Source of the DNA: Salinibacterium sp. TMP30
GTDB taxonomy: Bacteria; Actinomycetota; Actinomycetes; Actinomycetales; Microbacteriaceae
DNA: 64,000 bases
Direction: 5' to 3'
Assembly (NCBI RefSeq): GCF_038397785.1
Contig: NZ_CP151642.1
Span: 2,046,001-2,110,000 of the forward strand
The notes beneath the pieces were generated by a model that worked only from the letters and a program-made list of their open reading frames with translations, ran no database searches and was not told where the DNA came from. Below, in pieces: positions 40,748-64,000 of this stretch. The position numbers were made by a program, and so were the translations under genes. Positions within the stretch are counted from its first letter, which is position 1, and each line of letters starts with the position of its first letter.

Positions 40748-42058
40748 CTAGACGAGCATCCTTAGGGGATTCTCGATGTGACGAACGAATGCGGCAAGCC
40801 ATTGAGCTGCCAGCGCGCCATCAAGCACTCGATGGTCTGCGGAGAGCGTCACGGTCATGATTGTTCCGACTTCGATCGCTCCGTCGACGACTACGGGCTG
40901 TTGGCGCGCGAGTCCGACGGCGAGGATGGCCGACTGCGGAGGGTTGATAATTGCGGAGAACTCTGTCACGCCGTACATACCGAGATTGCTGACGGCGAAG
41001 CTGCCGCCCTCAAGCTCATGCTGCTTAATCCGGCCTGCTTTGGAGCGTTCGGCCAGATCGGCAACTCCGCGAGCGATTTCTGTGAGAGTTTGGCGTTCCA
41101 CTGACCGCAGAACCGGAGTTAGTAGTCCGCCGTCAATTGCTACGGCAACCGACATGTCGACGCTTGAGTAGCGCGTTATGGCGCTCTCCCCCCAGGTTGC
41201 GTTGGCGTCCGGCACATCGACGAACGCCATTGCAGACGCCTTGAGCACGAAATCGTTGATCGAGACTTTGACCGACGCGGACTCGTTGACTTCCTTTCGC
41301 AGCGCCACTAATCGGTCCACTCGGCAGTCGGCTACCAAATAGAAATGTGGCACCGTCGACTTGCTCTCGGTGAGCCGACGGGCGATCGCCTTGCGCATGC
41401 CGGTGTGGGGCACGTCGGTGGTCGTGGCGCCAGTGGATACCACCGGGGCCGCTGTCGCTGCCTGGGTAGTTGCGGGTGCCGACGACTCTGGTGCAGACTC
41501 TGGCACCGCTGCCGTTGCCTGCTCGGGAGCGCTGAGCCCCTCGAGGTCGCGGCGAACGATGCGGCCGCCCGGGCCCGATCCAGTAACGTCACTGAGATCG
41601 AGACCTTGCTCTTTAGCGAGGCGGCGAACGAGAGGGCTGGTGAACCTTCTGCTCGAGTCTGCAGGTGCGGCTGGTATTTGGCTTGTTTCGGAAGCAGAGG
41701 CTTGCGAAACAGAGGACTCGGATGCGGCGCTGTCCTCTGCGGGAACAGCCTGGGGAGGGTTCGCCTCTGGAGAGCTTTCTCCTCCCGAGCCGTTGAGTTC
41801 AGCATTGTCGGCGCTCTCGCCTTCAGCACCGACCAGCAGAATTGGATCGCCGACGCGCACGTCTTCTCCCTCGGCCACCACAAGCTTCAGTACCGTGCCT
41901 TCGACCTCGGAGGCGTACTCGACGTTCGCCTTCTCAGTTTCCACCTCGGCTAGCGGCATGCCAACGGTGATCTTCTGGCCAACGGCGACCATCCACGTTT
42001 GAATTGCGGCTTCGGTTGTGCCGGCAAGCACTTCAGGCATCCGTACGACGGTCGACAT
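40748..42058 (-). CDS. dihydrolipoamide acyltransferase (E2) of a 2-oxoacid dehydrogenase complex
   Basis: A 436-residue E2: one lipoyl domain (1-76, lipoyl Lys43 in EVETEKANVEY), an Ala/Pro/Ser/Glu-rich linker, a peripheral-subunit-binding domain (about 138-175; PLVRRLAKEQGLDLSDVTGSGPGGRIVRRDL), a second linker and a catalytic domain (about 210-436) with the active-site SADHRVLDGAL. One lipoyl domain is typical of acetoin or branched-chain complexes. It overlaps the E1 gene by one base (TGATG). No E3 (lipoamide dehydrogenase) gene is present in the window, so E3 must be shared. Confidence 0.9.
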   Translation of the reverse strand: MSTVVRMPEVLAGTTEAAIQTWMVAVGQKITVGMPLAEVETEKANVEYASEVEGTVLKLVVAEGEDVRVGDPILLVGAEGESADNAELNGSGGESSPEANPPQAVPAEDSAASESSVSQASASETSQIPAAPADSSRRFTSPLVRRLAKEQGLDLSDVTGSGPGGRIVRRDLEGLSAPEQATAAVPESAPESSAPATTQAATAAPVVSTGATTTDVPHTGMRKAIARRLTESKSTVPHFYLVADCRVDRLVALRKEVNESASVKVSINDFVLKASAMAFVDVPDANATWGESAITRYSSVDMSVAVAIDGGLLTPVLRSVERQTLTEIARGVADLAERSKAGRIKQHELEGGSFAVSNLGMYGVTEFSAIINPPQSAILAVGLARQQPVVVDGAIEVGTIMTVTLSADHRVLDGALAAQWLAAFVRHIENPLRMLV

Positions 42059-44244
42059 CAGTTTCCTCCCATTCCCCGGCGCACCCGTTCTAGGCCGGCG
42101 ACGACTTCTTCAGTGCCGGCGATTGCCGCGCGTTCAAGCACACGGGAGATGCTGGGGCTTGCCTCGCCTCCAGTTACCCGATCAATGGGCTGATCAAGCC
42201 AGTCAAAGAACCGGCGCTGCAACTCGTCGGCGAGCCACCCACCATATGAGGTGCCCTGAGCTCCCTGCTCGACGATCAGCACGCTGTTCGTCTTCTTGAT
42301 GCTGTTACCTAGCGTCTCCCAGTCGATCGACGCCCGATCCAGCCAGCGCAGGTCGATAACCTCGGCGTCGATTCCGGTCTGCTCGACTGCCTCGAGTGAG
42401 TGGCGAACCATAGAGAGGTAGCTGATGACGGTCACATCCGAACCTTCCCGTTTGATCCCCGCCTTTCCGAACGGCAATTGGTAGTCGAGGTCGCCGGCGG
42501 GAATTTCTTCGGTCTGACCGTAAAGATCGACGTGCTCGATGACCAACACCGGGTCTTGAAGTGCGAGCGCAGTGTTCATCAATCCGATGTAGTCCGCAGC
42601 GGACGAGGGGGCAACGATGCGCCACCCTGGGCTGGTCGCAAAAATGCCGGCTGGATCCATGAGGTGTTGTGAGCCATAGCCAGACCCCATGGCGACCTTT
42701 GTACGCAGTACAAGCGGCACCGGGTTCACTCCGCCGAACATGTGGCGAGCCTTGCCGATCTGGTTGAAGACTTGATCGGCCGCAACCCACAGGAAGTCTG
42801 GGTACATGAACTCGACAACGGGGCGAAATCGGCCGTCCAGCGCGAGGCCACCGGCGAGTCCGGTGAAAGCGTTTTCGCTGATGGGCGTGCCAAGAATGCG
42901 ATCGGGGAACTTCGCGGCAAGACCTTTTGTCGCGCCGTTGGTGCCGCCCTTGAGGCGATGCACGTCCTCGCCCATGACGACGATGCGCTCGTCTTCGGCC
43001 ATGCGACGAGCCATCACAGATGCGATGGCTTCGACGAATTTTACGGTTTCGGTTTCGCCGGTTGCACCGAGTGGTTCTAGTGTTCTGGCATCCGAAAGCT
43101 CGCTGGTGTCCCCTCGCACGCCAACATTGACGAAGTCGACGTCTGGCCACAACTCTGGACGAATTCTGCGTTTGCCTGCTGATTCCGGATCCGCCTCAAG
43201 CAGCGGTGCAACTGCCGCGGTCATTGCCGTCTGCGCTTGCTCGCGCACCGAGCTAACGCCGGCTTCATCTATCAGGCCGCGAGCGATCATCTTCCTCGCC
43301 ATGAGCAGCAGCGGGTCGCGCTCGCGCCACTCTGCCTCTTCCTTCTTTGAGCGATAGCCGAAGGCACTTCCCGGGACCGAACCGTTCTGGTGGAAGAAGC
43401 GGTAAACCTCGGCCTCAACGACGGCCGGGCCACCACCCGAGCGCATGACCTCTGCGGCCTGTTGCATTGCGAGATAGACGGCAAGTGGATCCATTCCGTC
43501 TACCCGCCAGGACGGGATCGAGAAACCTTGGCCGCGCACAGACAGCCGGGTGTCAGCGACACTTTCCGAAATATTCGTAGCGACTGCATAGACGTTGTTC
43601 TCGATGAAGAAACACACCGGCAGCTTCCAAGCGGCAGCAAGGTTCATGGTCTCAAGCACGGAACCGATCTGGCTGGCACCGTCTCCGAAGTAGTTGATGG
43701 TGAGGTCGGTAGTGTCCGAGTGCATCTGCGCCCAAGCGTTGCCTGCCGCCATGGGGGCTCCTCCCCCGACAATGGCGTTGGTGCCGAGCGCTCCTGCTTC
43801 GAACCACTGGAGGTGCATCGAGCCGCCTCGCCCAGCGCAGTAGCCCTGCGAGAGCCCGAGGATTTCGGCGAGCGTGCGCTGGAGCACGGTCTGGATTGGT
43901 TCCGTCACCAGCGACCCGAGATCGAGGTTGCCGTCTGAGACGTGCGTGATTGCCTTCGCGAGGAACTGGTGGTGGCCCCGATGAGATCCGTTGACTGCGT
44001 CACTAGAGCGGAGCCCGACGATGGAACCTACAGCGCCACCCTCTTGACCGATGCTGGAGTGCGCGGGGCCGTGAACTAGGGATTCTCCTGCGAGCTCAAG
44101 CACCGTTTCTTCGAACGCACGAATGAGGTGAAGCTCGCCGAGCATCGTTGCCAGCAGGGCAGGGTCCGCAGACTTCCAATCAGCTGCGGTGGTGGTGAGC
44201 TCTACCCAAGGTTGACCAGTTTCAAGACGTCGCTGTTTTGGCAT
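42058..44244 (-). CDS. 2-oxoacid dehydrogenase E1, alpha and beta subunits fused
   Basis: A 728-residue fusion. The alpha half (about 20-340) has HSSIGQEGGAVG, GRGGSMH and the thiamine diphosphate motif GDGASQIGSVLETMNLAAAWKLPVCFFIENN. After a linker, the beta half (about 395-725) has RIVVMGEDVHRLKGGTNGATKGL, PISENAFTGLAGGLALDGRFRPVVEFMYPDF and DPVLVIEHVDLY. The substrate may be acetoin or a branched or other 2-oxoacid. The start at 44244 fits a leaderless transcript (-10 TATTGT at 44257-44252, -35 TTGGAT at 44280-44275). It is divergent from the VOC-GntR genes. Confidence 0.88.
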   Translation of the reverse strand: MPKQRRLETGQPWVELTTTAADWKSADPALLATMLGELHLIRAFEETVLELAGESLVHGPAHSSIGQEGGAVGSIVGLRSSDAVNGSHRGHHQFLAKAITHVSDGNLDLGSLVTEPIQTVLQRTLAEILGLSQGYCAGRGGSMHLQWFEAGALGTNAIVGGGAPMAAGNAWAQMHSDTTDLTINYFGDGASQIGSVLETMNLAAAWKLPVCFFIENNVYAVATNISESVADTRLSVRGQGFSIPSWRVDGMDPLAVYLAMQQAAEVMRSGGGPAVVEAEVYRFFHQNGSVPGSAFGYRSKKEEAEWRERDPLLLMARKMIARGLIDEAGVSSVREQAQTAMTAAVAPLLEADPESAGKRRIRPELWPDVDFVNVGVRGDTSELSDARTLEPLGATGETETVKFVEAIASVMARRMAEDERIVVMGEDVHRLKGGTNGATKGLAAKFPDRILGTPISENAFTGLAGGLALDGRFRPVVEFMYPDFLWVAADQVFNQIGKARHMFGGVNPVPLVLRTKVAMGSGYGSQHLMDPAGIFATSPGWRIVAPSSAADYIGLMNTALALQDPVLVIEHVDLYGQTEEIPAGDLDYQLPFGKAGIKREGSDVTVISYLSMVRHSLEAVEQTGIDAEVIDLRWLDRASIDWETLGNSIKKTNSVLIVEQGAQGTSYGGWLADELQRRFFDWLDQPIDRVTGGEASPSISRVLERAAIAGTEEVVAGLERVRRGMGGN

Positions 44245-44251
44245 GTTCACT

Positions 44252-44280
44252 ACAATACCGCAGTATTGAATCCAATCCAA
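44252..44280 (-). promoter_or_regulatory. E1-E2 operon promoter with palindromic operator
   Basis: TTGGAT, 17 bases, TATTGT are followed by eight bases and the ATG at 44244. A perfect palindrome CAATAC-CGCA-GTATTG (44253-44268) covers the -10 box and spacer. The nearby GntR regulator (44889) is the natural candidate to bind it. Confidence 0.5.
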
Positions 44281-44314
44281 GGGAATTCTTCGGAAAAACC
44301 TCGAACTAATCGTG

Positions 44315-44343
44315 TTGATGAGTCATAATGTATCCAATAGAAT
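44315..44343 (+). promoter_or_regulatory. promoter of the VOC-GntR operon
   Basis: TTGATG (44315-44320), a 17-base spacer and TAGAAT (44338-44343) are followed by the AAGGAG ribosome site of the VOC gene. The spacer contains TGTATCCAATA, which resembles GntR/FCD operator halves and recurs in part (ATCCAAT) in the E1 promoter, so both promoters may be under one regulator. Confidence 0.5.
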
Positions 44344-44361
44344 CTGTGCAAAGGAGCGAGC

Positions 44362-44892
44362 ATGAGCGTGGGTCTACCAGGAATGCGGGGCATCGACCAC
44401 ATCGGGGTGACCGTGCCCGATCTAGACGAGGCGGAGCGGTTCTTTGTTGACGTGCTCGGCGCAGAGCTCATCTATACTCTTGGCACAAAGCAGGCCGACG
44501 ACGACTGGATGCAGGTAACGCTCGGAGTACATCCGCGCACTGTCATTCGCGAGATCCGGTTTCTCCGCCTTGGCAATGGAAGCAATCTTGAGCTGTTTAA
44601 ATATGACTCCGCAGACGGTCAAGCCGACGAACCGCGAAACAGCGATATCGGTGGACACCACATCGCCATCTATGTTGACGATCTCGACGAGGCTCGTGAA
44701 CACCTCCGCATTCACGGGGTAGAGATCATGGGAGAACCAGTCGCAAGCCAACGATCAGCAGAAGGGCAGCGCTGGCTGTACTTTCGCAGCCCGTGGGGGA
44801 TGCAATGTGAACTCGTCAGCTTCCCCGGAGGCAAGGCTTACGAGCGAAGTTCCCCGCGCCGACTGTGGAACCCGGCGCGTCCGGCAGAATGA
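44362..44892 (+). CDS. VOC-family (glyoxalase/dioxygenase fold) protein
   Basis: A 176-residue protein with two beta-alpha-beta-beta-beta modules: MRGIDHIGVTVPDLDEAERFFVDVLGAELIY and HHIAIYVDDLDEAREHLRIHGVEIMGEP, then WLYFRSPWGMQCELVSFPG. The metal-ligand positions are His (GIDHIG), Glu (LELFKY), His (GGHHIA) and Glu (CELVSFP), all present. Members include glyoxalases, epimerases and ring-cleaving dioxygenases. An AAGGAG site lies six bases before the ATG. It overlaps the GntR gene by four bases. Confidence 0.85.
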   Translation: MSVGLPGMRGIDHIGVTVPDLDEAERFFVDVLGAELIYTLGTKQADDDWMQVTLGVHPRTVIREIRFLRLGNGSNLELFKYDSADGQADEPRNSDIGGHHIAIYVDDLDEAREHLRIHGVEIMGEPVASQRSAEGQRWLYFRSPWGMQCELVSFPGGKAYERSSPRRLWNPARPAE

Positions 44893-45560
44893 GAACCATG
44901 ACGACCACTCAGCTCCCCACCCACGGCGGCGCGGGAATCCGCATAGCGGACGACCTGCGTACAGCTATCCTCGATGGTCAGTACGCACCAGGTGCACGAA
45001 TTCGACAGGAGCATCTCGCAGACCGTTACGGTGCAAGCCGGTTGCCGGTTCGTGAGGCACTACGCATGCTCGAGGGCGAAGGGCTTGTCAGGCTCGTGGC
45101 GAATACGGGGGCTTGGGTAACCCACTTGAGCCTTGCCGACTGCGAGGAAATGTATCAGATTCGAGAGCGAATCGAACCACTTCTCCTTCGCTACAACGTT
45201 CCTTTACTCAGCGCTGCTCAGATCGACCATCTCGACGCCCTCGCGACTCAGATGGAGCGCGGCGACGACGTCGAGCATTTTCTCGCCCTTGACCGCGAGT
45301 TCCACCTCGGATCTTATGAGGCTGCCACAACGACACTGCTCACGAACACGGTGCACCAACTCTGGAATCGCACACAGCATTACCGACGTGCGTTCATGCA
45401 GGTGTTCAGACCGAGTGACCGCAGCGTCCACCACGAACACCACCTTCTGGTTGCGGCGCTTCGACGTCGCGACGTCGACGAAGCAGAGCGCATTCTCGCT
45501 GCCCACATCCGGCGCACACGTTTTGAGCTCTCGCGGCATCCCGAAATCTTCGCGGACTAA
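44889..45560 (+). CDS. GntR-family regulator with FCD domain
   Basis: A 223-residue regulator: winged helix (about 15-80; YAPGARIRQEHLADRYGASRLPVREALRMLEGEGLV) and FCD domain (about 88-210; EMYQIRERIEPLLLRY, LDREFHLGSYEAA, HHEHHLLVAALRRRDVDEAERIL) with the three histidines and aspartate that bind metal in this class. The ATG at 44889 overlaps the VOC stop; another at 44898 is possible. It probably controls the divergent E1-E2 promoter and its own operon. Confidence 0.85.
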   Translation: MRTMTTTQLPTHGGAGIRIADDLRTAILDGQYAPGARIRQEHLADRYGASRLPVREALRMLEGEGLVRLVANTGAWVTHLSLADCEEMYQIRERIEPLLLRYNVPLLSAAQIDHLDALATQMERGDDVEHFLALDREFHLGSYEAATTTLLTNTVHQLWNRTQHYRRAFMQVFRPSDRSVHHEHHLLVAALRRRDVDEAERILAAHIRRTRFELSRHPEIFAD

Positions 45561-45604
45561 TCTTCGCGATTCTCTACCCACCATCGAATTTGAGGAGCAC
45601 CCCA

Positions 45605-46981
45605 ATGGCCATCGCCACGACAAATCCCACAACGGGAGTCATCGAGAAGACCTTCGAGCCGCACACCACCGACGAGGTCGAGCGCAGGATTTCCGCAGCC
45701 CAGAGCGCGTTCGTTGAGCTGAAATTGACCAGTTACACCCAGCGCGGGCAGTGGATGCGAGCGGCCGCCGACCTGCTCGACGCTGAGGTCGACGAGACCG
45801 CGCGGATGCTCACGATCGAGATGGGCAAGCCCATTGCCCAGTCAAAGGCTGAAGTGCTCAAGTGTGCCAAGAACATGCGGTTCTACGCCGACGAGTCCGA
45901 AGGTTTCCTTGCCGAAGAGAAGCTCGCCGACCCGAGCGCCGTCAACGCGTCGAGCGCTTGGACTAGGTACGACCCCCTCGGCGTTGTCCTCGCAGTGATG
46001 CCGTGGAACTACCCGCTGTGGCAGGTCATTCGTTTCGCTGCTCCCGCACTCATGGCTGGAAACACCGGGCTTCTCAAACACGCCTCCAACGTGCCACAGT
46101 CTGCGCTGTACCTTGACACGCTCTTCGAACGCGCCGGGTTCCCCGCTGGAGCGTTCACGACACTGCTCATCGGATCAGCCGAAGTCAAAGCGGTCCTAGA
46201 AGACCGCCGCGTGAAGGCTGTCACCCTGACCGGGTCAGAACCCGCCGGGCGGTCCGTCGCATCCACGGCTGGTGAGCAGATCAAGAAAGCGGTACTCGAG
46301 CTCGGAGGCTCTGACCCGTTCCTCGTCATGCCCTCGGCCGATGTGGATGCCGCGGCGACGATGGCGGTCAAGGCGCGCATCTCTAACAATGGCCAATCAT
46401 GTATCGCGGGCAAGCGCTTCATCGTACACACGGATGTGTACGACGAGTTTGCTCGCGTGTTCAGTCAGAAGATGGCAGCGCTCGTCGTCGGAGACCCGCT
46501 CGACCCAGCAACCGAGATCGGTCCCATCGCGACAGAGTCTGGCCTCAACGACTTGGCAGAACTCGTCGATGACGCAGTCGCCAAGGGGGCTGAGGTGCTC
46601 GCGGGAGGAAGCGCGCCAGATGGCCCCGGCTTCTACTACTCCCCCACAGTCCTGGCCGGCCTCACTGACGATATGCGTATCGTCATGGAGGAAACCTTCG
46701 GACCCGTGGCTTCGCTCTACCGGGCAGCGGACCGCGCCGACGCACTTGCCATCGCCAACCAGACCACCTTTGGTCTGTCGAGCGCCGTCTGGACCCAGGA
46801 TGCCGAAGAACAAGAGTGGTTCACGCGCAACCTCGACGCCGGTGCTGTGTTCATCAACGGCATGACCATCTCCTACCCCGAGTTGCCCTTCGGCGGCATC
46901 AAAGACTCCGGCTACGGGCGCGAACTCGCTGCGGCCGGAATCCGCGAATTCTGCAACCTAAAAACGGTCTGGAAGGCGTAA
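45605..46981 (+). CDS. NAD(P)-dependent aldehyde dehydrogenase, succinate-semialdehyde-dehydrogenase-like
   Basis: A 458-residue aldehyde dehydrogenase of the short GabD/YneI type. It has AVMPWNYPLWQVIRFAAPALMAGNTGLLKHASNVP, the catalytic Glu in LELGGSDPFLV, the catalytic Cys in SNNGQSCIAGKRF and FINGMTISYPELPFGGIKDSGYGREL. Relatives act on succinate semialdehyde or similar short acid aldehydes. A GAGGAG ribosome site precedes the ATG at 45605. It follows the GntR gene by 44 bases in the same direction and precedes the ketopantoate-reductase-like gene, giving a catabolic operon. Confidence 0.88.
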   Translation: MAIATTNPTTGVIEKTFEPHTTDEVERRISAAQSAFVELKLTSYTQRGQWMRAAADLLDAEVDETARMLTIEMGKPIAQSKAEVLKCAKNMRFYADESEGFLAEEKLADPSAVNASSAWTRYDPLGVVLAVMPWNYPLWQVIRFAAPALMAGNTGLLKHASNVPQSALYLDTLFERAGFPAGAFTTLLIGSAEVKAVLEDRRVKAVTLTGSEPAGRSVASTAGEQIKKAVLELGGSDPFLVMPSADVDAAATMAVKARISNNGQSCIAGKRFIVHTDVYDEFARVFSQKMAALVVGDPLDPATEIGPIATESGLNDLAELVDDAVAKGAEVLAGGSAPDGPGFYYSPTVLAGLTDDMRIVMEETFGPVASLYRAADRADALAIANQTTFGLSSAVWTQDAEEQEWFTRNLDAGAVFINGMTISYPELPFGGIKDSGYGRELAAAGIREFCNLKTVWKA

Positions 46982-46999
46982 CGTCCGTCCAGAGTGAAC

Positions 47000-47030
47000 G
47001 TGGCCCGCGTGCCAGAGGCGGGCGGGCCAC
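47000..47030 (+). other. intercistronic hairpin
   Basis: GTGGCCCG / CGGGCCAC form an 8-base stem with a 15-base loop between the aldehyde dehydrogenase and the ketopantoate-reductase-like gene. An A-run, not a T-run, follows, so mRNA processing or stability is likelier than termination. Confidence 0.4.
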
Positions 47031-47054: not shown

Positions 47055-48098
47055 ATGGCAGGAATGAGAATCGCGGTGCTCGGCACCGGCGCGATTGGCG
47101 CATCGCTTGGTGCTGACATGATCCGCGCCGGGCTCGATGTGACGTTCATCGATCAGTGGCCGGCCCACGTCGAGGCCATGCGAGCGAGCGGGCTGAGTGT
47201 GCATCTTCCCAACGGAACAACCGAAGTCACCCCGGTCACCGCCTACCACTTCTGTCAGGTTACCGAGATTCGCACGCCCTTTGATCTTGTCTTCACCTCA
47301 GTGAAGACCTACGACACTCGCTGGGTCACAGAGTTGATCAAGCCCCTCCTTCACAAGACTTCATTGGTCGTCGGACTTCAGAACGGAATGACTATCGATG
47401 ACATTGCAGACATCGTTGGGCATGATCGGTCTGTCGGCGCGGTACTCGGCATGGCCGCCAACCTGTTCACTCCCGGAGTGGTCGTGCGCCAGGTCGCACG
47501 GGAACAAACATGGCTGACCGTAGGATCCATGGACGGTAGTCGACCCCCCGCGCTCGAGGCTGCCGCCGAAGCACTTGGACACGCCGGCAGTATCTCTATC
47601 TCTGACGACATCCGCTCATCAAAGTGGATGAAACTCATCGCCAACATCCCCGAAATGCTCCCCTCGGCGATTCTCAACGTTCCGCTCCTCGAAGCAACCC
47701 GCATCGCGGGCGTGCGAGCCGTGATGAATGAAGCGTCCCGGGAGGCCTACCGCACGGCAAAAGCGCTCGGCATCACGATGGTACCGATCTTTGGGAAAAC
47801 CGCCGAAGACGTGCCCGACTCAGATCAGTACGGTATCGACCTGCTCGACGCCGTACTAGAGCACTACTCATTGCCCGACACCCGCGTGGCTGTGCTTCAG
47901 GACTGGGACAAGAGCCGGCGCGCCGAACTCGATGCCTTCAGCGGCTATGTCGTTGGCCAACAGCACAAGCTCGGAACCCGTGCCCCCGTGAACGAAGCGA
48001 TCCTGAAGATCGCCGAACGCATCGAGCGGGGGGACCTCGCACCCGATCCGGCCAACGCCGCCCTCCTCATCGAGGCTGGCGCGAACGCCCAGCCCTAA
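47055..48098 (+). CDS. ketopantoate reductase (PanE/ApbA)-family dehydrogenase, copy 1
   Basis: A 347-residue protein: N-terminal Rossmann domain with RIAVLGTGAIGASLGADM and a KTYDTRW segment (Lys near residue 76), LVVGLQNGMTIDDIADIVG, and a C-terminal helical domain with the catalytic-type lysine in SSKWMKLIANIPEMLPSAIL. True PanE proteins are about 300 residues and make pantoate; this longer branch in a catabolic cluster probably reduces or oxidises another 2-oxo/hydroxy acid. A paralogue with closely similar motifs starts at 63361. An AGGAG ribosome site lies nine bases upstream. Confidence 0.85.
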   Translation: MAGMRIAVLGTGAIGASLGADMIRAGLDVTFIDQWPAHVEAMRASGLSVHLPNGTTEVTPVTAYHFCQVTEIRTPFDLVFTSVKTYDTRWVTELIKPLLHKTSLVVGLQNGMTIDDIADIVGHDRSVGAVLGMAANLFTPGVVVRQVAREQTWLTVGSMDGSRPPALEAAAEALGHAGSISISDDIRSSKWMKLIANIPEMLPSAILNVPLLEATRIAGVRAVMNEASREAYRTAKALGITMVPIFGKTAEDVPDSDQYGIDLLDAVLEHYSLPDTRVAVLQDWDKSRRAELDAFSGYVVGQQHKLGTRAPVNEAILKIAERIERGDLAPDPANAALLIEAGANAQP

Positions 48099-49694: not shown

Positions 49695-49803
49695 GACTGT
49701 GTCTCCTGAAAAAGGTTTCGGAATCGGGCTGTTCTGATTGAACGACAAAACGACTGCTCCTTCGAATCGGTTCTCATCGCGAGGTCAAGGAATTGCGAAT
49801 CAC

Positions 49804-50594: not shown

Positions 50595-50629
50595 AGTGTA
50601 CAGTGAAAGTGTACAGTAAGAGTGAACAT
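50595..50629 (+). promoter_or_regulatory. three tandem operator-like repeats
   Basis: AGTGTACAGT (50595), AGTGTACAGT (50608) and AGTGAACAT (50621) repeat every 13 bases between the divergent XRE-cupin and M24 (copy 2) genes. A TATGAT hexamer follows at 50629-50634. The segment 50615-50628 also matches 13 of 14 bases of a repeat at 63305-63318. A regulator site is likely, probably for the XRE-cupin protein. Confidence 0.55.
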
Positions 50630-55618: not shown

Positions 55619-55717
55619 AACAACTCCAATCTTCACCCTCTGGTTTGCTCAACAAAAGCAGTCATCAAATCCCGTAACCTGCTTGTTCACACTGCACATA
55701 CTTGTCGTCATTCCATC

Positions 55718-55765
55718 GCATCAGGCGCGGTACGAGGGAAGGTTCTCCTCGACCCAAGCCGATGA
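55718..55765 (+). pseudogene. 3' tail of a second zinc alcohol dehydrogenase gene
   Basis: The plus strand reads ASGAVRGKVLLDPSR and a stop, against ASGAVGGKVLLDPSR at the end of the intact gene (53068-53112). The DNA differs mostly at third codon positions, so the source was a diverged gene and not a fresh copy. Both tails are followed by ATGA. The remnant lies antisense in the 3' end of the LacI-family gene. Confidence 0.75.
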
Positions 55766-56836: not shown

Positions 56837-56867
56837 CGGCTGACCCCGTTCTCGGTCGGATCCACGA

Positions 56868-57920
56868 TCAGACACTGATCTGCTTTCCGCGCCGCTTTGT
56901 CAAGAGGCCGACGACCCCGCGTCTGATAAAGAGCGCAAAGACAATCAGGATGATTCCTAGCACCAGGCGATTGGTTTCATTGGGGAGTCCCATTCCAAAC
57001 AAGTCGACTCCAGGAAGGGTTACTCGCAGGAACTGCTCGAGCCCAACAACGAAGAACGATCCGATGAGCGGACCGAGCCAACTTCCTAGACCACCAATCA
57101 CGCAGACTAGGACGATATCGAGCGCAACCTTGACGCTGAACGCACCGGTCGGTTCGATATATCCAGTCAGGAATGCCCAAGCTGCCCCAGCAAGACCACC
57201 GAGGGCTGCGCCAATAACGAGTGCCCGGAGCTTAACCTGAACGGTCTTAACACCAAGTACCTGCGCGGCAGGCTCATCTTCACTGATCGCCCTGAGGGCA
57301 TAGCCGAAGTTCGAGTGCTCCACGGAATACGTGACCAGAGTCGCGATGAAGGCGAGACCAAGCATGAGGTAGAAGAACATCGCGGCGAGATTCCGGGAAC
57401 TAATATCGTTGTCGACCGACACGAACAGCCCAGTTGCACCACCCAGCTCAGGGGTATTCTTCACGATGGTCAGCGCCAAGAACGTCAATATCAGCGTGAA
57501 TACTGCGAAGTAGTGGCTCCGCAATCTCAGAGTCGCGTAGCCAATCACGATCGACACAACGATGGCGGCCAGCGCTCCAGGGATCAGAGTAAACCACACC
57601 GGCCAGTCCCAAGCGTTGTTCAGCCATGCCGCCATGTAGGCGCCCGAACCAACGAAGATTGCAGCACCGAAGTTCAGGTAGCCACCATAGCCGCCCAAAA
57701 GGTTCCATCCCTGAGCAACAACCACGTAGAACAGAATGGATGTCAGGGTGGTTAGAAGACCAAGCGCGCTAACGTACCCGAGTGGGGCGAGCACTAGGAA
57801 GATCGCGCCTCCGATGGCCGGAAGCACCCACCTCGGGAGCGAACGAGTCGCCACGGCGGACGATTTAGCCTGAGCGAGAGCGATATTCTCCGTCGGAGAT
57901 ACTTCGTGTCTTTCGTTCAT
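56868..57920 (-). CDS. livM: branched-chain-amino-acid-type ABC transporter permease, LivM
   Basis: A 350-residue permease with about ten hydrophobic segments. LivM features include LLGGYGGYLNFGAAIFVGSGAYMAAWL, GYALRAISEDEPAAQVLGV (the EAA-like loop that touches the ATPase) and LALDIVLVCVIGGLGSWLGPLIGS-like sequence. The ATG at 57920 overlaps the livH stop (TGATG). Transporters of this class also carry aromatic acids, urea or amides, so leucine is not implied. Confidence 0.9.
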   Translation of the reverse strand: MNERHEVSPTENIALAQAKSSAVATRSLPRWVLPAIGGAIFLVLAPLGYVSALGLLTTLTSILFYVVVAQGWNLLGGYGGYLNFGAAIFVGSGAYMAAWLNNAWDWPVWFTLIPGALAAIVVSIVIGYATLRLRSHYFAVFTLILTFLALTIVKNTPELGGATGLFVSVDNDISSRNLAAMFFYLMLGLAFIATLVTYSVEHSNFGYALRAISEDEPAAQVLGVKTVQVKLRALVIGAALGGLAGAAWAFLTGYIEPTGAFSVKVALDIVLVCVIGGLGSWLGPLIGSFFVVGLEQFLRVTLPGVDLFGMGLPNETNRLVLGIILIVFALFIRRGVVGLLTKRRGKQISV

Positions 57921-58798
57921 CAGATTGTCCTCTGCTTTGCTCCGCCGATACCTTCGCTGCGGACGAGCAGAGCCACAGCCAGGATTCCGTATAGGACGAG
58001 ATAGGTGTATTGGAACGGAATAAAGATTCCGACCATGGTCTCCACAATGCCGACGATGAACCCTGCCACGAGTGTGCGTAACGCAGACCCCAGCCCACCC
58101 AAAATCACAACAAGGAAGGCCCACGCCAACCATCTGTAGTGCTCCTGAGGGTTGAAGGACTGCACCATCGCGAGGACGATCCCGCCGAATGCAGCGAACG
58201 CAATTCCTACCGCGAACACTCGTCGAGAGAGGGTCGTTACATCGATTCCCACCATCGCGGCCACGTCACGGTTTTGAGCCAGTCCCCGAATCGCCGATCC
58301 TGTCAGTGTTCTGGTCAGGAAAAAGTGGAGAGCTACGAGCACCACGACGGTGATGCCTGCTCCGACGAGACGCGCAATGGGAACCGAGATCGAACCGAAG
58401 TTCACGACCTCCGACAAATAACCGAGAGAGACGGTCCTAGTGTCGGTTGTCCAGATCATGACGGCCACGCTCTCAAGGATGACGAGGAGGCCGAAGAACG
58501 CGAGCATCACGGTAGGGCCACTGTCTTTCACAAGGTGCTGCGCAATGCCGCGGTGTATGACAAGACCGAACAGGTAGCCGATGACGACGACCGGCGCGAT
58601 CATGAGCAAAGGGTCGAGCCCCAGGCCATTCACGAACTCCCAGTAAAGGAGGCCGGCAAAAATGATGATGGCGCTGTGCGCAAGGTTCAAAACCCTGAGC
58701 ACTCCCAAAATCAGGCTAAGCCCAATAGCGAGACCACCGTACACGCCGCCGAGAAGTATCCCGTTGACGAATGACTGTGCGATTAAATCAAAGCTCAC
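57920..58798 (-). CDS. livH: branched-chain-amino-acid-type ABC transporter permease, LivH
   Basis: A 292-residue permease with about eight membrane segments. It begins LIAQSFVNGILLGGVYGGLAIGLSLILGVLRVLNLAHSAI, the classic LivH N-terminus, and has the ATPase-contacting loop IRGLAQNRDVAAMVGID followed by GGIVLAMVQSFNPQEHYRWLAWAFLVVILGGLGS. It forms the channel with LivM. The gene begins 13 bases after the livF stop. Confidence 0.9.
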   Translation of the reverse strand: MSFDLIAQSFVNGILLGGVYGGLAIGLSLILGVLRVLNLAHSAIIIFAGLLYWEFVNGLGLDPLLMIAPVVVIGYLFGLVIHRGIAQHLVKDSGPTVMLAFFGLLVILESVAVMIWTTDTRTVSLGYLSEVVNFGSISVPIARLVGAGITVVVLVALHFFLTRTLTGSAIRGLAQNRDVAAMVGIDVTTLSRRVFAVGIAFAAFGGIVLAMVQSFNPQEHYRWLAWAFLVVILGGLGSALRTLVAGFIVGIVETMVGIFIPFQYTYLVLYGILAVALLVRSEGIGGAKQRTI

Positions 58799-58811
58799 GA
58801 GTCTCTGCCTT

Positions 58812-59567
58812 TCACAAGTTCAACCATTGTTTAATCAGCTCGTCCAACTGACCCTCGAATTCGTCTCGAGCACCGTCGAGGTGATTCTTTCCATACGCAA
58901 GGGTGTAGACGTAGTCGGCCATGTCGACCGCAGCCTTAACGTTCTGATCGACTAGAAGAATTGTGCGACCTTCTTCCTTCAGCCGCTCCAATTCGTCGTA
59001 TACCCCGTCGACAAGCACTGGCGCTAGGCCGACTGACGGCTCGTCGATGAGCAGCACACGGGGCTCGAGGATCAGCGTGCGCGCGAATTCGACGATTCGC
59101 GCCTGGCCTCCGCTCAGGCTGCCCGCGAGTTTGTGGCGCATGGGCTTGATCGTCGGATAGCGCTCGAACATCGCCTCTAATGCACCCACAAACCGATCTC
59201 GATCACGTCGGATCTGCCATGCTCCCAGCCTGAGGTTCTCTTCCACAGTGAGTTCAGGGAAAATTGAACGGCCTTGTGGAAGAACGGAAATACCTAAGGC
59301 AAGGCGATCCGCTGGCCCCTTGTCCGAAATGTCTTCTCCGCCCAACAGCACCTGACCTACGCGGGGCTTGAGGAATCCCCCCATGATGCGCAGCAGAGTC
59401 GATTTTCCACTACCGTTTGGCCCGAGCAACACCGTCACCTTGCCTGGTTCAACAGTGATGGAGACGTCTTCAAGGACCACGTCATTTGTGAAGTATCCAG
59501 CAGTGACGCTGGATACCGACAGCGCGACTTTCGTGTCGACATTGACGGGACTTTTCTTGGGGTTCAT
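58812..59567 (-). CDS. livF: branched-chain-amino-acid-type ABC transporter ATPase, LivF
   Basis: A 251-residue ATPase with Walker A LLGPNGSGKSTLL, signature SLSGGQARIVEFARTL and Walker B VLLIDEPSVGLAP; the typical LivF segment LPQGRSIFPELTVEENLRLGAW is present. It overlaps livG by four bases and drives transport together with it. Confidence 0.92.
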   Translation of the reverse strand: MNPKKSPVNVDTKVALSVSSVTAGYFTNDVVLEDVSITVEPGKVTVLLGPNGSGKSTLLRIMGGFLKPRVGQVLLGGEDISDKGPADRLALGISVLPQGRSIFPELTVEENLRLGAWQIRRDRDRFVGALEAMFERYPTIKPMRHKLAGSLSGGQARIVEFARTLILEPRVLLIDEPSVGLAPVLVDGVYDELERLKEEGRTILLVDQNVKAAVDMADYVYTLAYGKNHLDGARDEFEGQLDELIKQWLNL

Positions 59568-60304
59568 CCGCGCTCTCCTCGTCCAGCGGGTCCGTGACCG
59601 AGATATGCTTCGATCACTTTGGGGTGCGAGATAACTTCAGCAGGAGTGCCTGCCGCGATCACCGCTCCATCAGCCATGCAGATGATGGTCGAGCACAGCC
59701 TGGTCAAGTCAGGTATCTCATGACTCACGATGAGAAATGCAGTGCCATTGCGGTTGCGCTCCAGGATTCGATCGCGCATGACCTCTTTGACGCTGGGATG
59801 AACGCCGGCGAAAGGTTCATCCATGAGAACAATCTTGGGATCCGTCATTAGTGCTCGCACGAATTCGAGAAGTTTCTGTTGCCCACCGGAGAGTTCACTT
59901 GCTGGCGTGTCGCGGTGGCTAGATAGCCCAACGAAACCAAGAAGTGCAGCCGCCTTTTCGACCCAACGACCTTTTGCACCCTTGCTGTGGAGAACGGGAA
60001 TGAGCATATTCTCAATCGCGGTGATCGTAGAGAACACCCTGGTGTTTTGAAAAGTGCGAGTTACGCCCGCCTTGACCAGCGCAGTACTGGACTTACCCGC
60101 CTGTTCAGTTCCGTCGACCTTGATCGATCCAGAATCGGGCGCAATCACACCATTAAGAAGGTTGAGCGTAGTCGTTTTGCCGGAACCATTTGGCCCGATA
60201 AGTCCAACGATGGAACCTTCGGGAATTTCAAAAGACGCTCCGTTCACTGCAGTCACACCACCAAAACTCTTGGCGAGGGACCCTACTTCAATGATCGACG
60301 ACAT
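59564..60304 (-). CDS. livG: branched-chain-amino-acid-type ABC transporter ATPase, LivG
   Basis: A 246-residue ATPase with Walker A LIGPNGSGKTTTLNLLNG, the LivG-type RTFQNTRVFSTITAIENMLI, signature ELSGGQQKLLEFVRAL, Walker B IVLMDEPFAGVHP and His switch VSHEIPDL. It follows the binding-protein gene by 34 bases and overlaps livF by four. Confidence 0.92.
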   Translation of the reverse strand: MSSIIEVGSLAKSFGGVTAVNGASFEIPEGSIVGLIGPNGSGKTTTLNLLNGVIAPDSGSIKVDGTEQAGKSSTALVKAGVTRTFQNTRVFSTITAIENMLIPVLHSKGAKGRWVEKAAALLGFVGLSSHRDTPASELSGGQQKLLEFVRALMTDPKIVLMDEPFAGVHPSVKEVMRDRILERNRNGTAFLIVSHEIPDLTRLCSTIICMADGAVIAAGTPAEVISHPKVIEAYLGHGPAGRGERG

Positions 60305-60338
60305 ACGCTCAACCTCCTATGTTCTAGCTACTGCGCGA

Positions 60339-61580
60339 TTATCGAAGCGGCATGATTGCCGTGGCCGTGGCCGCATCTATCGGCCAGATGAGCTGATTGC
60401 CACCATCTTCCTGGTACTGCAACAGGATCTGGCTGAAGTCGATCGTGCCGTCTTCGTTGTACGTGATGTCACCAACTGCAGTGCTGAAGGTGTTGTTCGC
60501 TATGTAGTCTCGCAACTCGTTCGAATCGAGCGTTCCCGCTCCCTCGATCGCCTGCTGGATCACCTGACCAGCCGCGTACGCGACTGCTGAGTATGCCGGA
60601 GCACCAGGTACGCCCTGTTGCTCAGCAACGTAGTCAGACACTTCCTGCAGACCGGGGTAGCCCTGTGTTGGGAAGGCCGTTGAGCTTGCGAAAACGTTGA
60701 TTCCCGCAACACCAAGGTCAGGCCAGTTAGGAAGCGACGTCACCTGTGAGCCGCACGAGCAGTAGACGTCAGGGTTGTAACCTGCCTCATTCACAGTGTT
60801 CGCGATGAGCGCTGCGTCATTCGGGAGGCTGAGAGCCACGAACATGTCCGCACCAGAGGCCTTGACAGTCTCGATGAGGCTGGATACGTCGGTCGCTGTC
60901 TGGTCATACTGTTCGTTGACGACCACCTCGATACCGCGCTCTTCTGCATAGTTCAGAACCCCGCCTTCGCCATCGAAGCCTTCGAGTGCAGCCAGCGTGA
61001 ATGGATTCTGAGCTGTGACGACCGCCAGGGTCTTAGGCATCTCTGATTCAGGAAGCGTGTCCAAGTACTCGAACATGCCTAGTGAATACTCAATATCTTG
61101 ATACGGCCACGTGCTCACGAGCAGATCGGCGGTTTGATGGATCTCCTTCCCCACAAAACCGGCGTTAATCATGAGAACTCCGGCTCGTTCGGCGATTGGG
61201 ACTACCGCACCGCCAACAGCTGTCGTGTACGGAGCGAGAAGCAAATCAACGTCATCCTCATTGATTAGTCTCTGATAAAGCTGTTGCGCCACAGTCGGCG
61301 TACTCTCATCGTCATAGATGATGAGTTCGACCTGCCGGCCGTCGATTCCACCTGAAGCGTTCACTTCGTCTAACCAGAACTCATATGCGAGCACATAACC
61401 TGCGGATGGTCCGGAGAACACACCCGTGAGACCCAGAGTCCCTCCGATCACGATGGGGTCTTCGCTGGAATCACTTGGGGTGCCGGCGTCTGGGCTACAG
61501 CCGACTAGCGCGAGGGCCATTGCCGACGCAACGGCAACTGGCGCAAAGAAACGGGACCGCCACTTCTTGGAGATATTCAT
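60339..61580 (-). CDS. ABC transporter substrate-binding lipoprotein (Leu/Ile/Val-binding-protein fold)
   Basis: A 413-residue lipoprotein (lipobox LALVGC, Cys near residue 28) with the type I periplasmic binding fold: VIGGTLGLTGVFSGPSAGYVLAYEFWLDEVNASGGIDGRQVELIIYDDES, QRLINEDDVDLLLAPYTTAV and VVTAQNPFTLAALEGF. It delivers the substrate to LivHMGF. The second of two adjacent ATGs (61580) has the better spacing to the AAGGAG site. The pocket cannot be read well enough to name the ligand. Confidence 0.88.
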   Translation of the reverse strand: MNISKKWRSRFFAPVAVASAMALALVGCSPDAGTPSDSSEDPIVIGGTLGLTGVFSGPSAGYVLAYEFWLDEVNASGGIDGRQVELIIYDDESTPTVAQQLYQRLINEDDVDLLLAPYTTAVGGAVVPIAERAGVLMINAGFVGKEIHQTADLLVSTWPYQDIEYSLGMFEYLDTLPESEMPKTLAVVTAQNPFTLAALEGFDGEGGVLNYAEERGIEVVVNEQYDQTATDVSSLIETVKASGADMFVALSLPNDAALIANTVNEAGYNPDVYCSCGSQVTSLPNWPDLGVAGINVFASSTAFPTQGYPGLQEVSDYVAEQQGVPGAPAYSAVAYAAGQVIQQAIEGAGTLDSNELRDYIANNTFSTAVGDITYNEDGTIDFSQILLQYQEDGGNQLIWPIDAATATAIMPLR

Positions 61581-62006
61581 CATTGAACTCCTTGTTTTCA
61601 ACACTACTTGGATGTGTGAGTTGTGCCTCTGTCTTAACGGTTAGCCATGTGATTTCCTGTAGAAATTCAAGGTACAAAGCCATAACTCGGGTTCTCTCTC
61701 AGCAAGTGCTTCTTTGCATTCGATTGCAGTGATGTTCGCACAGGCCACAATCGCGTGTCAAGTCACACTGAACAATTGCAGCCAAATCGTACAGTCCGGG
61801 CAGTCAGGAACCGCCCATCCACCGAAACGCCAGTGCCCCAAGCCTCAGGAGAAGCCACCAGTGAACGAGTGTACTGCTTGAGTAGTCCTCGAATGAGCGG
61901 GATTAGACCAGGAGCCTTGAGTTTCGCGAGACAGCGCAACCCAAAAGATTGATGTGTAGTCTAGTTGAACAAATATTGTGTGCCCATGAGCCCTTTTGGA
62001 GAAATC
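61581..62006. other. intergenic region upstream of the transporter operon
   Basis: About 425 bases between the divergent binding-protein gene and the dehydrogenase gene. A small inverted repeat ATTTC-n5-GAAAT lies near 61659-61673. A 65-codon open frame at 61755-61952 has no ribosome site or family resemblance. Promoters for both sides must be here, but I see no clear pair of boxes. Confidence 0.4.
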
Positions 62007-62918
62007 TTGACCTCAATCGCCTACGTTGGCCTCGGAACCATGGGCATCGAAATGGTTCGGCGACTGATCGCTGCAGGACACCCAGTCACCGTCTGGAACC
62101 GCTCCGACAGCGCGGCCATCGATGAGTTACTGCGTAGTGGAGCGACACGAGTCACGGACATTGGTGACGCAATGCACGCAGACGTTGTCTTTTCGATGCT
62201 CTCCAATGATGCCGCTGTCGCGGAGCAATTTACCGCCGACATTATTTCCCAAGCAAGCCCGTCGACGATCCACGTCAATATGTCGACTGTGAGCATTGCC
62301 CTTGCGGATGTAATGGAAGATGCGCATAAGAGAGCCGGAGTCTCTTACATCGCAGCGCCTGTCTTGGGACGACCACACGTAGCCGCGTCCGGGCAGCTGA
62401 ACATAGTCGCTGGTGGTGCACGGGAGCTGATAGCCACCCTTGAGCCAATTCTCAAAATTCTCGGAAAGCGCACGTGGATCGTTGGGGAACGACCCCGTGA
62501 CGCGAATCTCGTAAAGATCGCGGTGAACTACAACATCATTCACGCGATTCAAGCTCTCGCGGAGTCCATTTCTCTCGTCGAGCAAGGCGGAGTTGACGGT
62601 AACCAGTTCGTTGACATTCTTACCGATGTTGCTTTCACTGGTTCTGCCTACACCGGGTACGGCGCCATGATCGCCGAGAAGCGGTATTCGCCGGCGTCCT
62701 TTCCCGTATCGCTGGGTCTCAAAGATCTCAGCCTCGCTGAACAGGCTGCAGAATCCTTCGAGATCTCGCTCCCCGTTGCTGAAGTGCTTCGAGAAGTTTT
62801 CGAACAAGCCTTGGCTAGGCCGGAACTCGCCTCGCTTGACTGGTCTGCGGTAGCAGAGATCACCCGCGGCAGCGTGAGGCGCCATGCAAAATTACCGAAG
62901 ACTCCCTTAGAGCACTAG
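62007..62918 (+). CDS. NAD(P)-dependent dehydrogenase of the 3-hydroxyisobutyrate/6-phosphogluconate superfamily
   Basis: A 303-residue beta-hydroxyacid dehydrogenase: IAYVGLGTMGIEMVRRLIAAGHPVTVWNRS (Arg suggests NADP), HVNMSTVSIALADVMED, APVLGRPHVAASGQLNIVAGG and the catalytic lysine in DANLVKIAVNYNI. A TTG start at 62007 follows a GGAG site by five bases and gives the normal N-terminus; an ATG at 61986 would add seven residues. A decayed 5' fragment of a similar gene lies at 48114. It shares the island with the transporter and the second ketopantoate-reductase-like gene. Confidence 0.85.
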   Translation: MTSIAYVGLGTMGIEMVRRLIAAGHPVTVWNRSDSAAIDELLRSGATRVTDIGDAMHADVVFSMLSNDAAVAEQFTADIISQASPSTIHVNMSTVSIALADVMEDAHKRAGVSYIAAPVLGRPHVAASGQLNIVAGGARELIATLEPILKILGKRTWIVGERPRDANLVKIAVNYNIIHAIQALAESISLVEQGGVDGNQFVDILTDVAFTGSAYTGYGAMIAEKRYSPASFPVSLGLKDLSLAEQAAESFEISLPVAEVLREVFEQALARPELASLDWSAVAEITRGSVRRHAKLPKTPLEH

Positions 62919-62955
62919 AGTTCGCAGGATCGCGGGATTCCTGACAGCGCGCTAG

Positions 62956-63267
62956 CTAGCCTGCCGCAACGATCTCGTAGTCGACGGTCGTCCTCTCGGC
63001 AACCACAGTGCGGCCGAAGGCCGCCGCCTGTACATGCAAGGGGTGGGCTTGGTACGCCTCAAGATCGGCGTAGCTGAGGTGTTTGCTCGTCAAAACCATG
63101 TCAGCGTGGTCGCGGAGCAGTCCAACGTCGATTCCGACCTCCACGCTCAACAGCCCCGTGACCTTACCCTCAAGCGCACCTAACCGAGCTCCGAACTCCG
63201 ATGCATCTCGAAACTTCGTTGCAGGGTCTTCAGCGGACAGCCGAAATACAACAATATGCACGATCAT
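62956..63267 (-). CDS. Dabb-family (stress-responsive alpha/beta barrel) protein
   Basis: A 103-residue protein with the dimeric A/B-barrel pattern: MIVHIVVFRLSAEDPA, LEGKVTGLLSVEVGIDVG, HADMVLTSKHLSYADLEAYQAHPLHVQAAAF. The HIVVF start and the YQAHPLH motif are diagnostic. Relatives include olivetolic-acid-cyclase-like enzymes and proteins of unknown role. The ATG at 63267 has a GGAGA site six bases upstream. It is divergent from the second ketopantoate-reductase-like gene and shares its promoter region. Confidence 0.8.
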   Translation of the reverse strand: MIVHIVVFRLSAEDPATKFRDASEFGARLGALEGKVTGLLSVEVGIDVGLLRDHADMVLTSKHLSYADLEAYQAHPLHVQAAAFGRTVVAERTTVDYEIVAAG

Positions 63268-63284
63268 GATCCATCTCCAAAAAG

Positions 63285-63318
63285 TGTTCATTCTAACTAC
63301 ACACTGTTCACTCTAACT
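63285..63318 (-). promoter_or_regulatory. paired operator-like direct repeats
   Basis: TGTTCATTCTAACT (63285-63298) and TGTTCACTCTAACT (63305-63318) differ by one base and start 20 bases apart, about two helical turns. Read on the minus strand, the second is AGTTAGAGTGAACA, almost the same as 50615-50628 before M24 copy 2. A shared regulator is inferred. Confidence 0.55.
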
Positions 63319-63360
63319 CTGCTAATCTCCTTACACGAGCGTTTGAATGGAGAAGGTTTC

Positions 63361-64000
63361 ATGACTCGAATCGCGGTTCTTGGTGCGGGAGCGAATGGCG
63401 CCTCAATCGGTGCCGACCTAACAGTCGCGGGACTAGACGTGACTCTAATAGAGCAATGGCCGGCCCACGTGAAAGCGATGCGCGCCAATGGGGTCCTGAT
63501 CAGGACTCCCTCGGAGTCGTACCGCGTCCCCGTGCGTGCATATCATCTTTGCGAGATAGCGACACTGCGTGCACGCTTCGACATAGTTCTCATGCTGGTC
63601 AAAGCATACGATTCGCGCTGGGCTGCCGAGCTAATCAAGCCTCTGCTCAGCCCCGAGGGATTGCTGATCGGTGTGCAAAATGGCATGACCATCGATGACA
63701 TCGCCGATGTCGTCGGCGAGGAGCGAACGCTCGGCTGCGTAATTGAGATCTCGTCCATGATGTTTGAGCCCGGCATCGTCGAGCGACACTCTGGTAAAGA
63801 CCGCTCGTGGTTCGCGGTCGGGTCGCTCTCACCACGTACAGCCCACCGCGAAGAGGAGGTCGCTTCCTTATTGCGCCACGCGGGCACCGTCGAGGTAGTC
63901 GATGACATTCGTGCAACCAAATGGATGAAGCTTGTCAGCAACGCAACTACTTTGGTCACCACGGCGATCTTGGGCGTCCCGATGCTTGATGCTGCCGAGA
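63361..64000 (+). CDS. ketopantoate reductase-family dehydrogenase, copy 2 (cut by window edge)
   Basis: The first 213 residues are present. RIAVLGAGANGASIGADL, EQWPAHVKAMRANG, KAYDSRWAAELIKPLLS, VQNGMTIDDIADVVGEERTLG and ATKWMKLVSNATTL align closely with copy 1 (47055-48098), including the odd QWPAHV and NGMTIDDIAD stretches. So the two arose by duplication. A GGAGAAGG ribosome site lies five bases upstream. The C-terminal third lies beyond the right edge. Confidence 0.85.
   Translation, partial: MTRIAVLGAGANGASIGADLTVAGLDVTLIEQWPAHVKAMRANGVLIRTPSESYRVPVRAYHLCEIATLRARFDIVLMLVKAYDSRWAAELIKPLLSPEGLLIGVQNGMTIDDIADVVGEERTLGCVIEISSMMFEPGIVERHSGKDRSWFAVGSLSPRTAHREEEVASLLRHAGTVEVVDDIRATKWMKLVSNATTLVTTAILGVPMLDAAE

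Follow-up and report, generated by a model that had tools for sequence, protein, structure and literature searches.

Gene content and extent of the cluster

The chromosome of Salinibacterium sp. TMP30 (a single contig of 2.685 Mb, NZ_CP151642.1) contains a cluster of putative catabolic genes built around two paralogous M24-family proteins, M24a and M24b, and a fused E1 protein resembling 2-oxoacid and acetoin dehydrogenases, with its E2 partner. The cluster lies in the 64,000-nucleotide stretch analysed here, the window (bases 2046001-2110000), in whose numbering all coordinates are given; families were assigned by Pfam and NCBIfam profiles (Table 1). It extends from the E2 gene at 40748 to a major facilitator superfamily (MFS) transporter gene at approximately 69.0 kb, beyond the window end. 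The gene of the ketopantoate-reductase-like (KPR) protein KPR2 runs past this end and is followed by genes for a bicupin, an OsmC-like protein, a third KPR-like protein (KPR3) and the MFS transporter. The cluster ends about 7 kb ahead of rlmB/cysS-like genes, which were named by eye from their sequence and not by a profile call.

A previous sequence-only reading had placed a catabolic island at 42058-64000. All families that it named there (fused E1, VOC, GntR, XRE-cupin, LacI, aldehyde dehydrogenases (ALDHs), zinc alcohol dehydrogenase (ADH), KPR-like, HIBADH-like, Amidohydro_2 (ACMSD superfamily), the M24 pair, the Liv transporter and Dabb) have Pfam/NCBIfam support. The gene content of the interval thus holds, but its limits do not, because the E2 gene precedes it and the cluster overruns the window. 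Instead of two KPR-like enzymes there are three, the third being located beyond the window.

Most enzymes other than ALDH1 match no substrate-specific model, and KPR1 barely passes the broad TIGR00745; hence, the assigned families reveal little about which substrate is used. The HIBADH-like β-hydroxyacid dehydrogenase (HIB) stays below every HIBADH-type cut-off shown (105.5 versus 291.6 bits). The listed LivM open reading frame (56868-58133) is likely over-long, with a probable ATG at 57920, and the Amidohydro_2 gene shares a 4-base overlap with ALDH2. A palindrome at 50597-50615 lies in the gap from which the XRE-cupin and M24a genes diverge and is a candidate operator; its pattern is absent upstream of M24a in the 80 related loci described below, with one match elsewhere.

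Table 1. Genes of the cluster within the window (window numbering)
Feature	Position	Strand	Basis
E2 dihydrolipoyl acyltransferase	40748..42058	-	lipoyl PF00364, E3-binding PF02817, catalytic PF00198
Fused E1 alpha/beta, 2-oxoacid-/acetoin-dehydrogenase-like thiamine pyrophosphate (TPP) enzyme; core	42058..44280	-	E1_dh PF00676, transketolase pyrimidine PF02779 and C-terminal PF02780
VOC-superfamily protein, divergent from E1; core	44362..44892	+	Glyoxalase_4 PF13669
GntR/FCD regulator	44865..45560	+	PF00392, PF07729
ALDH1, succinate-semialdehyde-dehydrogenase (SSADH)-type	45590..46981	+	NF006915 754.9 bits, above the cut-off of 730
KPR1, ketopantoate-reductase-like dehydrogenase	47055..48098	+	PF02558, PF08546; TIGR00745 144.1 bits, cut-off 141.35
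M24b, DddP-like, Cys replacing metal-ligand Asp	48408..49748	-	PF00557, alignments
XRE-cupin regulator, divergent from M24a	49804..50511	-	PF01381, PF07883
M24a, DddP-like, Cys293; core	50688..52067	+	PF00557, alignment, fold model
Zinc-dependent medium-chain dehydrogenase (ADH; threonine/idonate/scyllo-inosose DH-like)	52084..53112	+	PF08240, PF00107; under every NCBIfam cut-off shown
Amidohydro_2 (ACMSD-superfamily) protein; putative local addition	53142..54110	-	PF04909; no NCBIfam family
ALDH2 aldehyde dehydrogenase; putative local addition	54107..55636	-	PF00171
LacI-family regulator	55721..56875	-	PF00356, PF13377
LivM-type permease	56868..57920 (likely start; listed frame to 58133)	-	PF02653; start inferred from sequence
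LivH-type permease	57920..58798	-	PF02653
LivF-type ATPase	58812..59567	-	PF00005; nearest NCBIfam UrtE/LivF, under cut-off
LivG-type ATPase	59564..60304	-	PF00005, PF12399
Liv-type substrate-binding lipoprotein	60339..61604	-	PF13458
HIBADH-like beta-hydroxyacid dehydrogenase (HIB)	61965..62918	+	PF03446, PF14833
Dabb-domain protein	62956..63291	-	PF07876
KPR2, ketopantoate-reductase-like	63361 (likely start)..64000, continuing to 64395	+	PF02558; open frame past window end

Conservation of the core

Conservation was analysed in the best 80 of at least 576 confirmed M24a relatives in the genome collection. Locus open reading frames were obtained by codon-score calling, and gene presence was determined by tblastn at ≥45% identity. 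Twenty of these loci are shorter than 19 kb, and many come from Microbacteriaceae, so that the loci are not independent. Genome samples that include absences, 149 from the same family and 148 from the class, served as a control.

M24 is present in 29 and E1 in 33 of the 149 family genomes, and 27 contain both (Fisher's test, p = 1.2e-21; 26 genomes and p = 4.8e-21 when the TMP30 genome is left out), while M24 occurs without E1 in two and E1 without M24 in six. KPR was found in 21 family genomes, 20 of which contain M24, and HIB in 26, of which 22 contain M24. At the genus level, 18 of the 19 genera with M24 also contain E1, which occurs in 22 of all 78 genera (p = 6.1e-13). The two genes share a contig in 22 of the 26 other genomes carrying both, always within 20 kb (median 4.5 kb), and are on separate contigs in the remaining four. 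One of two further genomes of the same genus lacks both genes and the other contains only an E1 of 62% identity, indicating that the module is gained and lost. The link is weaker among the 148 class genomes (M24 in 20, E1 in 8, both in 6; p = 6.9e-5).

Across the 80 loci, the most frequent companions of M24a are HIB and GntR (49 each), VOC (48), XRE-cupin and E1 (46 each) and E2 (32), followed by ADH (21), KPR2 (17), ALDH1 (15), KPR3 (13), KPR1 (10) and M24b (8). LacI and the Dabb gene are each found in two loci, as are four of the Liv proteins, and the Liv binding protein is found in one. Membership persists although gene order varies among the loci. The core, consisting of M24, E1/E2, VOC, GntR, XRE-cupin and HIB/KPR, is co-conserved through rearrangement and transporter exchange, and the Liv transporter is a swappable part of the module.

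The ACMSD-like gene and ALDH2 were not detected in any of the 80 loci, and the former was found in only one of the 148 class genomes at E ≤ 1e-60, namely in TMP30 itself. Owing to their absence from the related loci, these two genes seem to have been added locally. The locus with the closest synteny (L007) contains E2, E1, VOC, GntR, ALDH1, M24b, XRE-cupin, M24a, ADH, LacI, LivMHFG with the binding protein, KPR and OsmC, and is devoid of the ACMSD-like/ALDH2 pair. Relative to L007, the segment 53142-55636 looks inserted between ADH and LacI.

The sequence-only reading is partly supported by these data. Its view of a catabolic cluster that unites transport genes, several dehydrogenases, M24 and an acyl-CoA-forming E1-E2 stands, as does the co-conservation of a core (M24, E1, KPR and HIB) outside this strain; the expected co-occurrence across genomes was found for M24 and the KPR-like genes, but not for M24 and the ACMSD-like gene. 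The assumption that the whole 22 kb forms a single unit is rejected, on account of the distribution of the ACMSD-like gene and ALDH2 and the rarity of the Liv transporter (2/80).

A cysteine in the metal site of the M24 proteins

The five metal ligands of M24 peptidases (D, D, H, E, E) are not fully retained in M24a and M24b. In an alignment of 88 sequences, two from the window and 86 from the loci, the position of the second Asp is occupied by Cys (Cys293 of M24a) in all 88, while 87 or 88 sequences retain D282, E392 and E407, and 97% or more retain H359. Cys293 aligns with an Asp of solved prolidases and with Asp307 of DddP. Three other M24 proteins encoded in the same genome keep the Asp, and the same Cys is found in single relatives from Phaeobacter, Streptomyces, Paenarthrobacter and one haloarchaeon. 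As judged from these alignments, M24a and M24b belong to a subfamily in which an Asp that serves as metal ligand in M24 peptidases and in DddP is replaced by Cys. The haloarchaeal M24 protein with this Cys is encoded on a Halorussus salilacus plasmid (L093, 11971-13245; ~35% identity) in an unrelated neighbourhood, and 23 haloarchaeal plasmid records match at 31-35% identity.

A fold model of M24a, calculated from 56 alignment rows, reached a pLDDT of 79.1, with low confidence in two segments close to the active site (residues 259-266 and 362-364); a model from 25 rows was poor (pLDDT 55.8). The best Foldseek match is DddP (4s00/4b28, E 2.7e-25, 22-23% identity), followed by prolidases, creatinase and ectoine hydrolase. 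DddP also provides the best NCBIfam model (NF043017), although the scores of M24a (110.9 bits) and M24b (114.2 bits) do not reach the cut-off of 600. DddP has six invariant metal ligands including Asp307, and Asp377 as a candidate base (PMC4108388). In a pairwise alignment, the D-x-x-R motif of DddP corresponds to C293-Y-Y-R296 of M24a. Of the catalytic residues Asp377 and Tyr366, the former is located within an insertion and the latter is opposite an Ala, in a region where the alignment is loose. Membership in DddP was rejected by score, metal ligand and candidate base, although the fold agrees. The ectoine hydrolase DoeA models are likewise missed by a wide margin (49.5-60 bits versus 613 for TIGR02993 and 575 for NF038259).

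The E1-E2 complex and the accompanying enzymes

E1 and E2 contain the E1_dh, transketolase and lipoyl-E2 domains that are typical of 2-oxoacid dehydrogenase complexes in the broad sense. In a tree of 39 E1 proteins, in which several joins were flagged as long-branch joins, the fused E1 clade of the window is separate and on a long branch. Its mean identity is 36.0% to acetoin E1 proteins and 28.9% to the three other, split E1 proteins of the genome; by identity, the window E1 thus appears nearer to acetoin-dehydrogenase E1 than to these three. The window E2 is not of the AcoC type (66.3 versus 307 bits, NF011457).

Of 45 KPR-like sequences tried, 36 matched the motif and 9 did not; in all 36, strand β2 ends in Glu or Asp, and KPR1 itself has an acidic residue there. 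An acidic residue at this position favours NAD and the oxidising direction. An identity as ACMSD is not backed for the Amidohydro_2 protein, which matches only this Pfam domain and no NCBIfam family, and its PDB neighbours are mixed decarboxylases.

Related gene sets on plasmids and in other lineages

Twenty-seven plasmid regions were examined, out of 49 M24, 166 E1, 8 KPR and 12 binding-protein records. Streptomyces sp. YIM 121038 carries HIB, M24, an SSADH-type ALDH, VOC, E1 and E2 consecutively, and VOC adjoins E1 also on Streptomyces and proteobacterial plasmids. On all three Roseobacter plasmids examined, split E1a/E1b, lipoyl/E2 and SSADH-type ALDH genes follow an M24 relative (53-54% identity), in the order short-chain dehydrogenase/reductase (SDR), M24, E1a, E1b, lipoyl/E2, ALDH, E2 and ribose-type transporter, with lpdA in one of the three. 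These split E1 proteins cluster with E1 proteins encoded beside AcoC proteins above the NF011457 cut-off (support 96/95). By sequence, the Roseobacter plasmids present a second M24-E1 pairing, with an E1 of a different lineage.

One genome (G128) combines M24, ADH, XRE-cupin, GntR, VOC, E1, E2, HIB-like and ALDH genes with a rhizobial-like ribose-type transporter. On four alphaproteobacterial plasmids, KPR relatives are accompanied by Gfo/Idh, zinc dehydrogenase, YciI, dioxygenase and maleylacetate reductase genes. One of these, a rhizobial operon ending in intradiol dioxygenase and maleylacetate reductase, has a ribose-type transporter with 56-68% identity to its counterpart in some M24 loci. 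The same M24 loci have relatives of its butanediol-DH-like protein and zinc DH (51-52% identity; 50-68% for transporter and dehydrogenases together). Transporter and dehydrogenase genes of this rhizobial type are present in 15-24 of the 80 loci. The Liv-type binding protein has no plasmid match at E ≤ 1e-40, and three plasmid records match the ACMSD-like protein at 30-36% identity.

Paenarthrobacter plasmids contain additional RidA, amidase or flavin-reductase genes. The plasmid of Paenarthrobacter sp. R1 (L088, 12205-17237) encodes an M24a relative (77% identity), RidA and a HIB-like protein, and within 3 kb of the M24a relative a flavin reductase annotated as the sulfonamide-degradation protein SulR. 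Six loci (L045, L048, L062, L073, L076 and L081) combine M24b relatives with a Liv transporter of another kind and an Amidohydro_3 protein, suggesting that a related module there serves some other compound. A Shinella sumterensis plasmid (L128) contains one operon with a ribose-type transporter, acetoin-type E1/E2, a carboxymuconolactone-decarboxylase family protein, an FGGY kinase and two SDRs; it is presented here as another putative polyol-like pathway with an acetoin-type complex.

Proposed pathway and alternatives

The cluster is tentatively interpreted as a catabolic module that is conserved among actinobacteria and acts on a single compound or a few related ones, a reading that is well possible but to which slightly less than even confidence is attached. 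The compound would be imported by a Liv or ribose-type ABC system, and hydroxyl groups would be converted to keto or semialdehyde groups by the NAD-dependent KPR-like, zinc ADH and HIBADH-like dehydrogenases. A non-peptidase M24 enzyme may then cleave or open the oxidised intermediate, and the fused E1 with E2 could act on the resulting acyloin, α-diketone or 2-oxoacid, yielding acyl-CoA and an aldehyde or CO2. The E3 component would be supplied from elsewhere in the genome, and the aldehyde would be oxidised by the SSADH-type ALDH. The NAD-linked oxidations and acyl-CoA formation are predicted from what is known of these families; the M24 step and the substrate type of E1-E2 we infer. The leading guess for the substrate is a polyol-like compound, perhaps a cyclitol, to which solely the shared transport and dehydrogenase genes point.

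Several observations weigh against this interpretation. In the class sample, E1 is missing at the threshold used from 14 of 20 genomes with M24, and two of the eight genomes with E1 lack M24, showing that the pair is not obligatory. No M24 is listed near E1 in nine proteobacterial and Citricoccus regions, for which the plasmid gene tables are incomplete; SDRs stand beside E1 in seven of them and a shikimate-dehydrogenase-like gene in four. The tree, with its long-branch fused E1 clade, does not settle a placement beside acetoin dehydrogenase. The window cluster is without a ribose-type transporter, and none of the 80 loci shares with the rhizobial operon its Gfo/Idh, intradiol dioxygenase or maleylacetate reductase gene. 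Finally, M24 has RidA, amidase and amidohydrolase neighbours elsewhere, which would rather point to a nitrogen compound, the main rival to a polyol or cyclitol.

The sequence-only reading had proposed an amide- or acid-like compound that is opened by an M24 protein. In the nitrogen-compound form of this route, an amide, imide or N-heterocycle is imported, M24 hydrolyses a C-N bond in the manner of creatinase or ectoine hydrolase, and the product passes through alcohol, aldehyde and 2-oxoacid to acyl-CoA. M24 enzymes with known non-peptidase roles do cleave C-N bonds, creatinase and ectoine hydrolase are among the structural matches, and a PRK08204-type amidohydrolase cluster is present in 34 of the 80 loci. 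Yet creatinase and ectoine hydrolase scores are far below their cut-offs, the window cluster has no amidase, and ribose-type sugar transporters and polyol-type (cyclitol-style) dehydrogenases adjoin M24 in many other loci. This route is considered somewhat unlikely.

It is quite unlikely that there is no joint pathway at all, and that independent catabolic operons have gathered at a shared chromosomal hotspot, with M24 as an ordinary peptidase or housekeeping enzyme. The Liv/LacI and ACMSD-like/ALDH2 blocks are clearly separable, and some related loci adjoin cysS/rlmB-like genes, but M24, E1, KPR and HIB are jointly present or absent across genomes, and the same pairing recurs on Roseobacter and Streptomyces plasmids. 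Degradation of branched-chain or pantoate-like acids, with KPR oxidising pantoate-type hydroxyacids, E1-E2 serving as branched-chain 2-oxoacid dehydrogenase and the HIBADH-like enzyme acting on 3-hydroxyisobutyrate, fits the family names and the narrow pass of KPR1; it was rejected as very improbable by the HIBADH-type score and the low identity of E1 to the other split E1 proteins of the genome, and it leaves no place for three KPR paralogues and M24. A pathway for dimethylsulfoniopropionate or a related sulfonium compound with the M24 proteins as DddP-like lyases is scarcely credible, for despite the best profile and structural matches the scores are far too low, Asp307 is replaced by Cys293 and the candidate base Asp377 has no aligned counterpart.

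Within the interpretation as a catabolic module, a bolder proposal, itself rather unlikely, is that the Cys-variant M24 protein is a new non-peptidase enzyme, which would open the ring of an oxidised polyol, or act on a comparable β-dicarbonyl, by C-C or C-O cleavage and pass an acyloin or diketone to the CoA-dependent TPP complex. This would constitute a cyclitol-type pathway across Actinobacteria and Roseobacters that bypasses both the iol route and aromatisation.

The cluster consists of known families with a distinct M24 subfamily; keyword searches of an open-access library listed neither a description of the M24-E1 pairing nor an assigned pathway for homologous clusters. If the joint reading is true, a common catabolic module becomes testable: many genomes annotate the M24 gene merely as Xaa-Pro peptidase, while the module predicts non-peptidase activity and a Cys in the metal site. 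The substrate, once found, would name several generic families together, namely the KPR-like, HIBADH-like, VOC and fused E1 proteins.

Comparison with known systems

M24a and M24b share with DddP an N-terminal domain, the pita-bread domain and most metal ligands, and differ from it by low identity, the Cys at the Asp307 position, the missing Asp377 and other gene neighbours. The fold is also common to Xaa-Pro dipeptidase, ectoine hydrolase and creatinase, with four of the five classical ligand positions kept and Cys293 at the fifth; no curated model exceeds its cut-off.

The rhizobial KPR/intradiol dioxygenase/maleylacetate reductase operons, for which the search yielded no characterised pathway, have orthologues of their ribose-type transporter, butanediol-DH-like protein, zinc DH and KPR in part of the M24 loci. 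They differ in that no M24 or E1 is listed and in carrying ring-cleavage genes that are missing from the M24 loci.

Inositol catabolism via a cyclic diketone employs IolE and the TPP enzyme IolD, and an IolM-type zinc DH is also known. The proposed pathway would likewise combine ring-polyol oxidation with a subsequent TPP enzyme, and the window ADH is weakly IolM-like (116.3 versus 450 bits), but no iol genes are among the family matches of the cluster, and E1-E2 would stand in place of IolD. Acetoin/2,3-butanediol operons (AcoABC and butanediol dehydrogenase) resemble the cluster in their diol-type dehydrogenases, E1-E2 and ALDH, in the absence of kinase, thiolase and aldolase, and in the grouping of the Roseobacter M24-linked E1 with acetoin E1. 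In contrast to these operons, the window cluster has a non-AcoC E2 and a distinct fused E1 clade, and additionally contains M24, KPR, HIB and VOC.

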